Source: Flavobacterium galactosidilyticum (GTDB taxonomy: Bacteria; Bacteroidota; Bacteroidia; Flavobacteriales; Flavobacteriaceae). From it: 64,000 nt of DNA. Position numbers and translations under genes: made by a program. The notes beneath the pieces were generated by a model. It worked only from the letters and a program-made list of their open reading frames with translations. It ran no database searches and was not told the DNA's origin. The stretch is taken from the NCBI RefSeq assembly GCF_020911945.1, contig NZ_CP087135.1, forward strand, positions 62,001 to 126,000. The letters run 5' to 3'. The first letter of the stretch is position 1. The number at the start of each line of letters is the position of its first letter. Of this stretch, positions 30,865 through 36,381 are shown piece after piece.

Positions 30865-30871
30865 AAGCACC

Positions 30872-30904
30872 AAACGCCTTGAAACTTTCGAGGCGTTTTT
30901 TTTG
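30872..30904 (+). terminator. Intrinsic terminator after purA
   Basis: The stem aaacgcct / aggcgttt with an 11-base loop is followed by a T run, just after the purA stop and before the convergent ligase-like gene. Confidence 0.85.
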
Positions 30905-30908
30905 GATT

Positions 30909-32645
30909 TTATTTTTCCAATGTTTGTATTTCTATCAAACGTCTTTTAGTTTCAATTTTTATATTTTCAACTGTTTTGGAAGGAATTTTAACCTTCAAAT
31001 TTAGTATTGAATTTCCCCAATATAATGCTTTGTTCCACTGTTTTGCTTCGTAATAAAACTGAAACAATACTTGCCTATTTCCAAATAATTTCGGATCTAA
31101 ATAAACTACTTGAATAAATTGTTTCTCAGCTTCTGAAAATTGTTTCTTTTCTAAAAGCAAGTTTCCCATCAATAAAGCACATTTATCATCGTAACGATAT
31201 TTCATTGTTTCATTTAGAACTATTATTGCCGAATCCAGTTGATTAACTTTAGTCAGTTCATCCGCATAATTATACATTAAATCTCCATCTTTAATAAAAT
31301 CATTATACAATTCGCAATAGTTATTTATTGCTTTTTTTCTGAATCCGGTATTTGACAACAAAACCGTTTCATTAGCCTTTTGGTAAAAAAGAAAAGATTG
31401 ATAACCAAAAAACAAAAGACAAATTGATGTTACTAAAAGTGTTATTTTACCAATGACTTGATATTTATTCTCATTCAAAAATTGTTGCTTTGAAGATTCC
31501 TTTTGGTGATAACTAGCTATAACTGCAATACACAATACAAAATGAATTAAAATTCCAATCATCTGAAATGGAAAGGAGAAAAAAGAACTCACAACTATAC
31601 AAACAATACTTAAATAAGCACCAAATAAAATTGGTTTATCAATCAATGATAAGTAATCACGCCTTAAACATCTAAAAAAATAAATTGTTCCAACAATTAA
31701 AATCGCAAGTCCCAATAATCCAATTTCTATAACCAATTGCAAAGGATCATTATACATATAAATTGTATTTCCTGCTAATAAAGCTTCATCATTACTAATT
31801 GATTTTTTTGAAAAATAAACAGCTTGAAATAAGTTATATTGAGCTCTAAAATTCCCATAACCTATACCCAAAAATAATTCTTTAGGTTCTAATTGCGTAT
31901 AAACCACTTTGTAAATAAGCAATCGTCCATTTGAAGAATCTGATTTAACATTTATCAATGCGAGCATTAAACAAGAAATAGTCGCTCCAATAATTAAAAT
32001 ACTGATTTTTGATTTTAAAAAATGGTAATTCAAAAAGAGTAAACCAACTGTAAATCCTAAAATTCCAGCTCTTCCTTTAGTATAAAACAAAATGAAGTAA
32101 CAAAAAATAATAAAAATATACGGAAAAATTTTATTACTGTTTTTCTCTTTGTAAAACCGCTTAAGAGTAGGAATTATAAACAACAACTGTCCAGCCAATA
32201 ATATTGAAAAAACACTTTCGTTGGGATAAAATCTAAAAAATTGAAAGTTTTTAGATGCCAAAACAAGAACATTTTCTATACTAATCATTATACCATAAAC
32301 AACAATTAAACCTTTACTATTTATGATTTTGTTTCCAACTAAAAAACTATAAAACACTTCGTACAAAAGAAATAGAGCCAAAATAAAAATATAAGGGAAT
32401 ATATTTCCTAAACCAAAATAACACTTCAAATCTAGCCAGAACACACCTAATAATGTCAAGACATTAGCAATACTATTTCCAGTAAAATTTTCTCTTTTTA
32501 ATACCATTAACAAACCAGTGAAACCAACAATAAAAACAAATACAGGCTTCATAAACATCCTCGCATCACTATAAAAATGAAAAAATGGAAAAATAATGAT
32601 TAGGCAAAAAAAGAATACATAAAGATTAGTACAGAAATTTTTCAT
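30909..32645 (-). CDS. O-antigen ligase/polymerase-like membrane protein with C-terminal TPRs
   Basis: This is a 578-residue protein from ATG 32645. Residues 1 to about 430 hold 11-13 membrane helices with the Wzy_C-type periplasmic loop (SSNGRLLIYKVV, ELFLGIGYGNFRAQY). The C-terminal 140 residues are TPR-like (MYNYADELTKVNQLDSAIIV, LLMGNLLLEKKQFSEAEKQF). Family members ligate or polymerise lipid-linked glycans, some onto proteins. It is the last gene on this strand after the metalloenzyme cassettes, 63 bases from the small exported gene. It could belong to the cassette locus or be the missing ligase for the 13-23 kb locus. Confidence 0.8.
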   Translation of the reverse strand: MKNFCTNLYVFFFCLIIIFPFFHFYSDARMFMKPVFVFIVGFTGLLMVLKRENFTGNSIANVLTLLGVFWLDLKCYFGLGNIFPYIFILALFLLYEVFYSFLVGNKIINSKGLIVVYGIMISIENVLVLASKNFQFFRFYPNESVFSILLAGQLLFIIPTLKRFYKEKNSNKIFPYIFIIFCYFILFYTKGRAGILGFTVGLLFLNYHFLKSKISILIIGATISCLMLALINVKSDSSNGRLLIYKVVYTQLEPKELFLGIGYGNFRAQYNLFQAVYFSKKSISNDEALLAGNTIYMYNDPLQLVIEIGLLGLAILIVGTIYFFRCLRRDYLSLIDKPILFGAYLSIVCIVVSSFFSFPFQMIGILIHFVLCIAVIASYHQKESSKQQFLNENKYQVIGKITLLVTSICLLFFGYQSFLFYQKANETVLLSNTGFRKKAINNYCELYNDFIKDGDLMYNYADELTKVNQLDSAIIVLNETMKYRYDDKCALLMGNLLLEKKQFSEAEKQFIQVVYLDPKLFGNRQVLFQFYYEAKQWNKALYWGNSILNLKVKIPSKTVENIKIETKRRLIEIQTLEK

Positions 32646-32708
32646 TGAATTAAAAGAAATAAAAAACTGACACAAAATTGTATCGGTTCAAATTACATTT
32701 TTCCTTTT

Positions 32709-33128
32709 TTACTCCTTAGGCTGATTTATGACTTTTATTCTCACAACAGCAAGATTGCCATATTTTTCAGCATCTTCTTTAGTCCATATCAGCTCATTTC
32801 CTTTAGGTCTTTTTTCCCATTTCCAATCAATTGGTTCTTTTACATAGACATAAAGGGATACACGATCTTCCCAATTGCCTTTATTCGTTCTCTGTTGTTC
32901 ATATGTAATAAATTTAAATCTGAAAAAGTAAGGACTATCAATACTAGTGTCAGCTGTTCTAATTTCAGGCTTAATTTCTTTCAGTAAATCTTTTAGTGGT
33001 TTATTAATAAATTGTTGCTCGTTTGTTTTTAATAAATAGACATCTTTGGTTGTTTGCACCATTTGTGCCTTACAGCTATAGTTCATTAAAAGGAATACTA
33101 TTACTGAAATTTTTAATAAGGTTTTCAT
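32709..33128 (-). CDS. Small exported protein after the JAMM-like cassette (unknown)
   Basis: This 139-residue protein has a hydrophobic N-terminal signal (LLKISVIVFLLMNYS) followed by CKAQ, so it may be a lipoprotein or be cleaved after AQ. The mature part is charged and Trp-containing with no recognised domain (EPIDWKWEKRPKGNELIW near residue 100). It starts 12 bases after the JAMM-like gene. Position and size suggest a partner or protective protein for that enzyme, but no homology supports this. It shares no obvious similarity with the protein at 34140-34583. Confidence 0.6.
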   Translation of the reverse strand: MKTLLKISVIVFLLMNYSCKAQMVQTTKDVYLLKTNEQQFINKPLKDLLKEIKPEIRTADTSIDSPYFFRFKFITYEQQRTNKGNWEDRVSLYVYVKEPIDWKWEKRPKGNELIWTKEDAEKYGNLAVVRIKVINQPKE

Positions 33129-33139
33129 AATTTATTATT

Positions 33140-34110
33140 TTAGTTATTACAAGGTATTAAAGTATATGTTTTGGAACCATCAGGATTTACGGTTTCTTCT
33201 ATTTTAAAAGGCTTAAAGTTTCCGTCACTATCTTGCTTTAGTATCGTTATTCCAGATTCATATTTATCTAATAGGAAAGAAATTGCTCTCATATAATTTT
33301 CAACACTAGAACCTGAACCCATAGAATACCTTAAAGAATAAATTTCATCTAAAATTGCATCAGGAAATTCTGGAGGATAATTCAGTGATATATCTGCAGG
33401 ATAAGCTACCACAAAATTATGAGCTGCTGACAAATCAGTTACCACTATTGCATATGAACCGTCGGGCAAATTCACAAATGAGGTAATATGCTCACTATTT
33501 ATTTCATTTTTTTTAACAGCAGCATATACTATATCATTAGATGATGGTGGTCCATTTGTTGTGTGGTTATGAATATCTGCGAAAGCGCCAGGCCAACTAG
33601 TGTTTGTTGCTACAATATTAGGACTGCCATTATTCATAGGGGCTTGAGTAATATTCCCATGAACATCTCTTCCTAATGTGATACTGTGTTCATTGCCATC
33701 AGCACTGGCTGTCATTATGCTTGTATTAGCTGTTATGTAGCTACTATTTTGAGAAATAGTTGTAGTTGCTGAACCAGTTGAGCAAGGATCGTTTGGCGGT
33801 CAGCTGGTGGGTCAGTTGGTGGATCTCCTCCACCGTCGCTACAGCCCAAACCATAAAATTCACATAGGCAATTAGGGTCAGGATTATTATCACATGGATT
33901 TGTACCATCTGGTGCACATATTTCGTATGGTGCAGACTCCCAAACTAAAACCCAATTATCACATTCTCCTGTATATACCCAGACATCTCCTTGTTGCTCA
34001 ATTTCACATTGTGCTTCCCAATACTGATCTTTAAATGTTTCGCAACTATTGTTTTTTTTTGGGGTTAATGTACTTTTATTAGTTTTTATTTTTACTTTTT
34101 TTAGGCATTT
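33140..34110 (-). pseudogene. Orphan cassette: Cys-rich module plus JAMM-like metalloenzyme domain, truncated and frameshifted
   Basis: The upstream open frame begins after a TAA at 34113-34111 with no start codon and encodes the Cys-rich module (DQYWEAQCEIEQQGDVW, then APDGTNPCDNNPDPNCL) nearly identical to the next gene upstream. At about 33797-33799 one base is missing: adding a C joins it through a Pro-rich linker (DPPTDPPADPPNDPCSTGS) to the second frame, which runs to 33140. That part has FADIHNHTTNGPPSSNDIVY, an HxH...S..D arrangement like JAMM/MPN metallopeptidases (RadC: HNHPSG..PS..D). An ATG at 33715 could yield only the C-terminal domain (191 residues). It could be a silent recombination donor or a remnant. 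Confidence 0.8.
33831..34102 (-). repeat. 272-bp direct repeat, copy A (in the orphan cassette)
   Basis: This segment matches 35317-35588 base for base over most of its length, with scattered substitutions and no visible net indel. It encodes the shared Cys-rich module. Divergence increases toward the upstream (34.0-34.1 kb) end. Confidence 0.9.
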
Positions 34111-34139
34111 TTATGAATCCAATTAATTTTTATTTTTGA

Positions 34140-34583
34140 TTAGGCAGTACCATCAAGGAAAATTCTCCATTTCAAATAATATCCTTCTCGTATTTTATAA
34201 ATCACGTACATATATTGACGATGGTATCTTCCTTTCCTATATTGATCTGGAGTAATGTATTTTATACAATCGATTGACTTCAGTTTTTTAGGACGCTTGT
34301 CAATACATAACATTCTAATGCAGAAATCTTTTACATTTACTGGAACCATTTTTTTTTGAAGTTTTCTTATGCTATCAAAATGGTTTTTTCTCTGTTCTTT
34401 CGTTTCATATCCTTGCAAATAGATACAAAAATCTGCTTTGGTACTATCTTTCGAAAAAAAATATTCTACAAACTTTGTTCCTTTTTCTATATAAATAAAG
34501 GTGGAATCATTTTTATCGTTTTGTGAAAAAGAATAAAAAGATGTCATTAATAACAAAAAAAATGTTAGTTTTAGTTTTGACAT
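34140..34583 (-). CDS. Small secreted protein after the zincin cassette (unknown)
   Basis: This 147-residue protein has a signal peptide (LKLTFFLLLMTSFYSFSQ) and a basic mature chain with three Cys and many Tyr (YRKGRYHRQYMYVIYKIREG near residue 115). No domain was recognised. Its start overlaps the 3' end of the zincin gene by 13 bases, so the two are translationally coupled, as expected for an enzyme-partner or effector-protector pair. That role is inference only. Confidence 0.6.
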   Translation of the reverse strand: MSKLKLTFFLLLMTSFYSFSQNDKNDSTFIYIEKGTKFVEYFFSKDSTKADFCIYLQGYETKEQRKNHFDSIRKLQKKMVPVNVKDFCIRMLCIDKRPKKLKSIDCIKYITPDQYRKGRYHRQYMYVIYKIREGYYLKWRIFLDGTA

Positions 34584-36169
34584 TTTGGCGAATTTTGTAT
34601 ATAGTTATTTAAAGTTTGTATTAAATTAAGGCGCTCCTGCGCACTCAGATTTTTCCAAGCAGTTGTTGAATTAGGTAAAAGACCTGTACTATCAAACGAA
34701 CTTCCCGTACCTTTCAATCCAAACCAAGCAATTGCATTATATACATCATTGGTTTGGGTATTATCGTATTGTTTTAATGCACTTACAATAATACTAATAT
34801 AATGTTGAGCCATTAGTTCGTGCATAGCATTTGAAGGCTCTTGACCAGAAGGTACATTATATTCATATCTCATATAGTAATCATAAAGCCCTGGGAAATT
34901 ATTTCTTAAACTTTCTACATAATCAATTTGTTGCTGTGTAGTCATAATAGTTGGGTCTATATTTCCACTTTCGGCAGCTATCATCATTTTTCTGAACATT
35001 TCAGCATGAATAATTTCATGAATAAAAATATCAGCAACAAATAAAGGAGGAGTTTCTGCCAACTTACCTGCATCAAGTGTAATAGTAATTGATCCATTAT
35101 TAGGCGGTGAAGTTTCACCGTATGTATTTCCAACGAGAGTTCCAATAGCAAAATTCAAATTGGCAACGGAATTATTTCCGTCAAATCTTTTAAGATAATA
35201 ATCAAATCCACTTGCTTGTCCAAGTTTAGAATACACTTCATTCAAACAAGGATTATTTTTCAACGCTTGATCATTAATTATTATAGCAGGTACAACCGGA
35301 CTCCCTCCTCCATCACCACCGTCGCTACAGCCAAAACCATAAAACTCACATAGGCAATTAGGGTCAGGATTATTATCACATGGATTTGTACCATCTGGTG
35401 CACATATTTCGTATGGTGCAGACTCCCAAACTAAAACCCAATTATCACATTCTCCTGTATACACCCAAACATCTCCTTGTTGCTCAATTTCACATTGTGC
35501 TTCCCAATACTGATCGGTAACTGTTTCGCAACCATTGGTTTTGTGGGTTAATGTACTTTTACTAGTTTTTATTTTGACTTTTTTTTTATCCTCTGGTTTG
35601 ATTGTATTAATCGTTTTTCCATTTGATAAAATCTTCATTGATAAAACTTCAGAGTCCCATGTTTTTATAATTACTTTTCCAGAAAAGTCATTCCCTTTCC
35701 GCAAATCTACATCACTTATATCAAAACCTTTACGCTCTAAATAATCATAATCTGGTATATACTGTATTTCACGCAAGTAAATTTTATCCTTCCCCATCTT
35801 AATGAATACCGCTCTAGTCAATGACGCATCTAAAACTCTTTGAGCTTGTGCTGAATTCAATTTTCCAGAGTTAACAAAACTAACTTGTTTTTTTGCTTTT
35901 ATTAATGGAAATTCAATAATCTCAACATATCCTATTTTTCTATAATACTCATTATTCTAATCCGGATATTTTTTATCCTTCCTTTTAACAGATTTATTAT
36001 ATTGATCTGTTTTTTTAAACATAGAATAGTACCACAATTCAGCTTCCTCTGTAGAAAAAGAAGTATCAGTTGGTTGTTCATAAAGATCTTTTTCACAAGA
36101 GGTAAATAGCAGGTTAAGCATTACAATTAAACAAAATAGTTTGAGTAATTTAGGATTTTTTTCTTTCAT
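34571..36169 (-). pseudogene. Lipoprotein with Cys-rich module and HExxH zincin domain, interrupted by an in-frame TAG
   Basis: ATG 36169 starts a lipoprotein signal (KLFCLIVMLNLLFTSC). The same frame meets TAG at 35959-35957 after 70 residues (KRKDKKYPD-stop-NNEYYRKIGY) and then stays open to 34571, for 532 residues if read through. A single TGG-to-TAG change would explain it. The body has an N-terminal region, the Cys-rich module (about 225-310), a Gly linker (SDGGDGGGSP) and a zincin domain with FIHEIIHAEMF and HELMAQHY. The downstream part has only a TTG (35860) as possible start and would lack an export signal. TAG is a normal stop in other genes here, so a nonsense mutation is most likely. 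Confidence 0.8.
35317..35588 (-). repeat. 272-bp direct repeat, copy B (in the zincin gene)
   Basis: This is the counterpart of 33831-34102. The repeat covers the Cys-rich module and stops at the Gly-rich linker, exactly where the two proteins switch to different catalytic domains. Confidence 0.9.
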
Positions 36170-36381
36170 TTTAATAATATATAATTTATAAAATAATTTT
36201 TACCTACTTTAAATTTGCAAAAAAACAACTTAATTATAAGAATTATTTTATTATTTTAACAAAAATTTAACTTAATAGTTAATAAAAATTCTTTAAAATT
36301 AAACAAATGTACATTGCTTTTTAAGATTCTAAAAATCTCATTTCACTGCTTTATACTATCTTTATAGATTAATTCAAACCA

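Follow-up and report, generated by a model that had tools for sequence, protein, structure and literature searches.

A probable polymorphic toxin-immunity locus with lipoprotein carriers and an orphan cassette in Flavobacterium galactosidilyticum

A stretch of 64,000 nucleotides from Flavobacterium galactosidilyticum (contig NZ_CP087135.1, positions 62,001 to 126,000; here called the window), which sits in a single-contig genome of 3.53 Mb, contains on its minus strand what is, judging from sequence comparison, very probably a polymorphic toxin-immunity locus with an orphan cassette. Directly seen are the modular layout, an exchange of C-terminal domains (tips) between related carriers, linkage of tip and predicted immunity gene, recurrent orphan cassettes, and a contrast between the lipoboxes of toxins and partners.

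The locus consists of two units (Table 1). The first encodes a lipoprotein composed, in this order, of a signal peptide with lipobox, an N-domain, a cysteine-rich module, and a zincin tip, and is followed by a small exported partner, a 147-residue open reading frame (ORF) overlapping the zincin stop. The second contains an orphan cysteine-rich module, a JAMM-like tip, and a lipoprotein-like ORF of 139 residues. The two modules (35585-35316 and 34102-33830) match at 94.5% over 273 columns (blastn E 1e-121), and the match stops at the glycine-rich linker ahead of the tip. The module copy begins 37 nt past the end of the first partner gene and has neither a start nor a signal peptide. The first-pass annotation had described these two units, a near-identical module joined to different tips and different exported ORFs, and this layout is confirmed, as is, from the reading frames, the missing start and signal of the second unit. 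In the organism's own genome, no third region matched unit 1.

That annotation saw only the second unit as defective, by its missing start and signal. It missed that the module and the JAMM domain of this unit lie in different frames and that unit 1 is broken as well: an in-frame TAG (35959-35957) separates the 70-residue signal piece from a continuation of 461 codons in the same frame, which comprises the rest of the N-domain, the cysteine-rich module, and the zincin domain. NK2020, L023, and L025 have no stop at the matching site. Both partner ORFs of the window are intact over their full length. The window strain probably holds immunity without weapons, unless the breaks come from sequencing errors, and since both toxins look dead, the likely present role of the locus in this strain would be protection by the two kept immunity genes. 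It could also be an inert relic in which the toxins broke and the immunity genes were retained by chance. We regard this as unlikely, although it survives better than the other alternatives considered below: the stop in unit 1 and, in unit 2, the absent start and the shift of frame are in its favour, whereas both immunity ORFs are complete and cassettes without a carrier start are seen in other arrays too. Even if correct for this strain, it leaves the nature of the family untouched.

In relatives, the 220 residues following the unit 1 stop match 5 of 398 Flavobacterium genomes, the own one counted; one of the five (G227, E 5e-4) contained four stops and was dropped as noise. A profile of the carrier N-domain (A1) matched 1 of 397 genomes of the family sample, namely the own genome, and five loci when searched against genome contigs, in CF108, azizsancarii, Root420, NK2020, and CRH; a single carrier protein used as query against the genome contigs gave no match. 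Profile A1 had no match in viral contigs, and in plasmids neither an N-domain nor the JAMM tip was matched. In NK2020 (L015/L016), seven N-domain matches form one 16-kb array whose tips, sorted by eye, comprise zincin, a second type of JAMM-like domain, and others. A transposase is inserted in the array and several frames are broken, some perhaps in error, since the record is an assembly from a metagenome. Over the 16,414 nt compared, G269 does not differ from CP051546.1 (NK2020). By eye, relatives have cysteine-containing segments at the equivalent position.

The seeds of a second carrier profile, A2, were nine toxins retrieved by their tips, four with a zincin and five with a JAMM domain; in hhalign this profile matched A1 (93.2%, E 3e-7). 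The circularity of a profile built from both tip kinds was removed by a cross-profile test, in which a profile of the four zincin-bearing seeds recovered all five seeds with a JAMM domain at E 5e-31 to 1e-21, and a profile of the latter recovered all zincin seeds (E 5e-31 to 2e-17 over both directions). With A2, 24 loci were found in 17 of 249 genomes, the own genome not among them, with a zincin tip in 10, a JAMM tip in 5, and another tip in 9; eight of the 24 are the profile's own seeds (three zincin, all five JAMM), and the 16 new loci divide into 7 with a zincin and 9 with another tip. Related carriers with a constant N-terminal part thus hold unrelated tips, a trait of polymorphic toxins.

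The nine other tips are diverse. Those of L086 and L096 belong together, and L096 resembles PPPDE peptidases (E 0.001, below the cut-off); L088 has the second JAMM-like type (by eye); L092, L097/L100, and L098 carry further tips; the tip of L093 is short and of unclear kind, and that of L090 is a broken zincin. Tip kinds were assigned from profiles and from pairwise comparison of representatives. Those of the zincin, JAMM, PPPDE-like, L092, L097/L100, and L098 tips and of one NK2020 tip are mutually dissimilar at E 0.1, except for the PPPDE-like and zincin representatives, where the L096 segment still contained linker. Related Flavobacterium carriers thus appear to bear at least seven kinds of tip, the L088 tip excluded. 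As a side observation, the PPPDE-like tip of L086/L096 is followed by a hydrophobic membrane-like protein, a candidate for a further toxin-immunity pair.

The zincin tip has matches in 54 of 299 genomes, many of them weak, and the JAMM tip in 18 of 299, the own genome counted in both cases; locus L073 from the JAMM search was dropped because it had no matching ORF. A JAMM profile matched 8 of 196 genomes in the order sample, the own one again counted, and five of these eight belong to another family. The H, E, and H of the zincin motif are invariant in 19 aligned members, of which 13 show weak SprT-like matches (best E 0.0006); sequence-profile searches of PDB gave nothing convincing, with Spartan at E 0.8 for the zincin. 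Among 17 aligned JAMM-like domains, E34, H74, H76, S83, and D86 are invariant.

We then asked which gene follows each tip. The set comprises 73 distinct toxin frames, the window's units and some broken frames included, each with 330 nt or more downstream; 68 of them have a next gene. This gene belongs to the ImmJ family, that of the window's JAMM partner, in 18/18 JAMM toxins, against 0/38 zincins and 0/12 others. A signal-like hydrophobic start is present in the next gene of 37/38 zincins and 7/12 others. Five next genes of the others have no signal; two are toxin leftovers, and the remaining three, from two types of tip (L016 and L092; L015), may encode immunity proteins that are not exported, in which case the compartments in which toxins act may differ between tips. 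In Mantel tests on 17 JAMM toxins, tip and immunity distances correlate at 0.72 (p 0.0001), and immunity and N-part distances at 0.16 (p 0.12). One JAMM toxin, in G004, is followed by eight tandem, diverged ImmJ genes (L113:2352-5949). A cognate immunity gene directly downstream that tracks the tip, with 18/18 JAMM toxins, 0/50 others, and an r of 0.72, is what polymorphic toxin systems would be expected to show. The annotation had proposed that many C-termini, each with its own small gene, would be found attached to the cysteine-rich module. Run with the carrier N-domain and the tips instead of the module, this check has the predicted result: the tips vary, in place of a single C-terminal domain, and ImmJ tracks JAMM, in place of small genes independent of the tip. 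Its effector-plus-protector logic thereby gains support from unrelated tips on one N-domain superfamily and from tip-linked partners, with function read from sequence.

The orphan-cassette architecture of the window recurs in other species, with carrier or linker DNA in common at 85-99%. In G046, a full zincin gene and its immunity gene are followed by two JAMM cassettes with truncated N-parts and common segments of 223-424 nt at 95-99%. In G275, a full zincin gene precedes a second unit whose carrier is broken (955 nt at 92.7%), an orphan starts in the linker (234-237 nt at 85-93%), and another contig holds a JAMM toxin with the same carrier, 94% over 815 nt. Standalone toxin-immunity cassettes, a further trait of polymorphic toxins, are therefore present in the window, G046, and G275. 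CDI (contact-dependent inhibition), Rhs, and MafB loci likewise possess orphan tip-immunity cassettes with sequence in common with the full gene.

The lipoboxes distinguish toxins from partners. The 43 distinct toxin lipoboxes contain on average 1.93 acidic residues at +2 to +6; all have at least one and 36 at least two. The window's unit 1 has CEKDLY. The 16 partner lipoboxes contain 0.25 on average, none having two. A background of 27 other distinct lipoproteins, taken from the window and the fetched loci and cleaned of duplicates and partner genes although it may still contain false lipoboxes, averages 0.74, with 5 having at least two. The comparison of 36/43 toxins with 5/32 in the uncleaned background gives a Fisher p of 4e-9, relatedness ignored. 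In 25 of 38 distinct ImmJ proteins a cysteine lies right before an xAQ motif, none with an acidic residue there, and the others lack the cysteine or were cut; the window ImmJ carries NYSCKAQ. In Bacteroidota, surface lipoproteins have acidic residues right after the lipidated cysteine (PMC5080379), lipoproteins with the export signal are loaded into vesicles in Bacteroides (PMC6222051), and the signal is required for killing by BSAP-1 (PMC12853789). Acidic toxin lipoboxes and neutral partner lipoboxes, combined with this published role, suggest that the toxin is outside and the immunity protein inside, in the periplasm. The JAMM and zincin tips would then act in the envelope, which fits badly with the nuclease proposal for Tox-JAB (PMC3482391). 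The JAMM toxins at L113:5967-8837 and L114:9833-12712 have plain signal peptides and perhaps form a T9SS-linked branch (T9SS, type IX secretion system); each adjoins a protein, which in L113 has Sel1 repeats and a T9SS sorting domain.

In the mechanism that we propose, a lipoprotein carrier, made up of signal peptide, acidic lipobox, N-domain, cysteine-rich module, and glycine-rich linker, would display a C-terminal enzyme, and the gene directly after it would encode a cognate immunity protein that is exported to the periplasm. The orphan cassette would keep a tip and its immunity gene behind a module copy, which would give the homology for recombination onto the carrier. From the cell surface the toxin may pass to a neighbour through contact or in vesicles; where the immunity protein is exported (zincin, JAMM), the tip would act in the neighbour's periplasm, and where it is not, inside the cell. 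As for other routes, SprA of the T9SS is present in the genome and no Por_Secre_tail match was found on window proteins with Pfam; for a type VI secretion system, no VipB match was found in the own genome, and among 14 controls only E. coli matched, so that sensitivity to Bacteroidota forms is in doubt. We tentatively advance, at somewhat short of even confidence, the broader view that these are undescribed polymorphic weapons of Flavobacteriota, export-signal lipoproteins flipped to the surface and delivered through contact or in vesicles, with no injection machine dedicated to them, in which the lipobox sets the topology (acidic toxin outside, neutral immunity periplasmic) and the JAB toxins hit an envelope target instead of being nucleases. 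If this is true, a very large phylum swaps toxic enzymes on a lipoprotein scaffold with no known secretion machine needed, and the signal of an immunity gene would tell the compartment of its toxin. Root420, CRH, and CF108, with unbroken genes, are named candidates for lipoprotein-borne antagonism, and the locus family gives a setting for JAB and zincin toxin domains.

Several observations weigh against the toxin-immunity interpretation or parts of it. The five window pieces scanned all fall short of the curated family cut-offs in Pfam and NCBIfam, the JAMM assignment, which stays putative, is by motif alone, and the structure models are poor (mean predicted local distance difference test score 44.6 for the Root420 toxin and 42.1 for the window JAMM piece). 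The exact cysteine-rich module of the window was not found elsewhere by sequence search, the matches in other genomes covering the N-domain except for the weak one with four stops. At least three of the 50 non-JAMM next genes, all among the 12 others, are leftovers of the same broken toxin, and in the 17 JAMM toxins tip distances also correlate with N-part distances (0.44, p 0.0016). Downstream of L072, a remote JAMM relative outside the 18, lies another exported family; at the JAMM loci in another family, a weak ImmJ match is present in 4/6 (domain E 2e-6 to 2e-3, with one near-identical pair among them) and none in 2/6. The lipobox counts are phylogenetically non-independent and exclude broken frames and frames without a recognized lipobox, and L070 and L071 have plain signal peptides.

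Both window tips resemble metallopeptidases, and nutrient-capture surface lipoproteins are widespread in Bacteroidota (PMC5080379), so the products might be surface-anchored nutritional or processing enzymes, each with an exported inhibitor or chaperone, and not weapons. This seems improbable to us: related carriers bear PPPDE-like and unnamed tips, three of them with signal-less partners, and a nutritional role gives no reason for orphan cassettes or for an array of eight immunity genes. The layout of lipobox, conserved N-domain, and variable C-terminus is also that of the Amoebophilus APD1/APD2 proteins, proposed to be effectors against eukaryotic hosts (PMC3482391); here the partner genes of the JAMM and zincin tips are linked and tip-specific, whereas host-directed effectors are marked in that account by absent immunity genes, and we give such a role very little credence. 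A phage-defence or intracellular toxin-antitoxin module, to which two-gene units and an insert at a variable site might point, is the least credible of all, as 0/5 proteins match PADLOC and both toxin and partner have signal peptides.

Table 1. Positions of the locus features and of the surrounding insert in the window.
Feature	Positions	Strand	Basis or remark
Signal peptide, lipobox (TSC/EKDLYE), and start of N-domain, unit 1	35957..36169	-	In-frame TAG at end; acidic +2 and +4 as in surface lipoproteins; 70-residue piece
Remaining carrier N-domain, unit 1	35586..35956	-	Same frame after TAG; 32-40% identity to N-domains of three other Flavobacterium genomes
Cysteine-rich module, unit 1	35316..35585	-	Direct repeat, 273 columns, 94.5%
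Zincin (HEIIH) C-terminal domain	34571..35296 including stop codon (34574-35296 without)	-	Motif; 19-member alignment
ImmZ, small exported zincin partner, predicted immunity, intact	34140..34583	-	Overlaps zincin stop
Orphan cysteine-rich module copy	33830..34102	-	Repeat of unit 1 module
JAMM-like C-terminal domain (HNH...S..D), orphan unit	33140..33790 including stop codon (33143-33790 without)	-	Frame differs from that of module
ImmJ, small exported lipoprotein-like JAMM partner, predicted immunity, intact	32709..33128	-	Family downstream of 18/18 JAMM toxins, window's own counted
O-antigen-ligase-like membrane protein with TPR, recurrent neighbour	30909..32675	-	Wzy_C 31.4 bits, cut-off 31.7
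Insert between purA and NUDIX gene	30865..36381	.	Genes adjacent in 4/5 relatives; low GC

The locus lies in an insert of about 5.5 kb with a guanine-plus-cytosine (GC) content of 29.7%, against 32.4% for the window, the third lowest value among 234 sliding windows of equal length, some of which overlap the insert. The NUDIX gene is present in 15 of 31 genomes, the own one counted; of the other 14, five were inspected, and in four of these purA and the NUDIX gene are direct neighbours, while the fifth has one unrelated gene between them. The insert also holds the O-antigen-ligase-like gene, whose homologues occur in 9 of 121 genomes (own one counted). The same neighbour stands beside the toxin loci of NK2020, Root420, and CRH (L015/L016, L023, and L025 among these loci), and a homologue lies near JAMM toxins in G004 and G042. 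Elsewhere this gene pairs with a transglutaminase-like gene: the two are adjacent in L113-L118, and in L023, L025, and NK2020 they stand, as judged by eye, on either side of the toxin cassette or array. In 6 of these 9 loci a toxin is no more than a few kb away, three of the nine having been found via their toxin; the window's copy has no transglutaminase-like gene beside it. Also a few kb from such a pair, the gene at L117:683-1948 matches Tox-MPTase2 above the Pfam cut-off, and we count it for the polymorphic-toxin reading. Small exported peptides adjoin the pair at L115:10248-10589 and L116:7610-7876, the latter with no Pfam match at 0.01; we take them to be reminiscent of NVEALA-type peptides.

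Among the closest described parallels is Tox-JAB-1 with Imm65, a JAB/JAMM motif used as a C-terminal toxin in Bacteroidetes with a strictly linked immunity protein bearing signal peptide and lipobox (PMC3482391). Compared by description and not by sequence, the JAMM tips show its pattern of HxH, S, and D with an upstream acidic residue; of the NxxxE motif given there, the E is invariant in the 17 JAMM domains and an N at that spacing is not evident. The window ImmJ has the Imm65 traits of signal peptide, lipobox, and YxC, although the cysteine is not in all ImmJ members. Tox-JAB-1 is, however, described behind RHS repeats and as a suggested nuclease (PMC3482391), whereas here the carriers are short lipoproteins and exported immunity points to the periplasm; no RHS repeats were matched in the proteins scanned, whose N-parts are short lipoprotein. 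SitA/SitI of myxobacteria combine polymorphic lipoprotein toxins, which have an N-terminal carrier (escort) domain, with cognate immunity (PMC5562445, PMC8546572), and the Flavobacterium carriers are likewise lipoproteins with polymorphic tips; as described, SitA differs in its delivery by outer membrane exchange and in nuclease tips acting in the cytoplasm. BSAP proteins of Bacteroidales are lipoproteins with an export signal whose surface display is needed for killing (PMC12853789), but they are MACPF pore formers, and the accessible part of that source describes no exchangeable enzyme tip that is paired with an immunity gene; the window pieces and L023 have no MACPF match in Pfam. TANFOR toxins combine a Bacteroidetes N-domain with variable toxins and downstream immunity (PMC7073777), but have another N-domain, TIGR02542, which gave no NCBIfam match among the window pieces, and are large proteins for which the main text does not mention lipoproteins. 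MafB (PMC3482391) and CDI/Rhs differ in their carriers and export routes. The first-pass annotation did not know the layout as a described system. This holds for the combination, since export-signal lipoprotein carriers with swappable tips and immunity were not found in the literature searched, which covers few subscription papers, but not for the components, as JAB and metallopeptidase toxin domains and the lipobox-bearing Imm65 were already described (PMC3482391). The single parts thus have precedents in Tox-JAB/Imm65, SitA, and BSAP, and what appears to be new is their combination with export-signal lipoprotein carriers.

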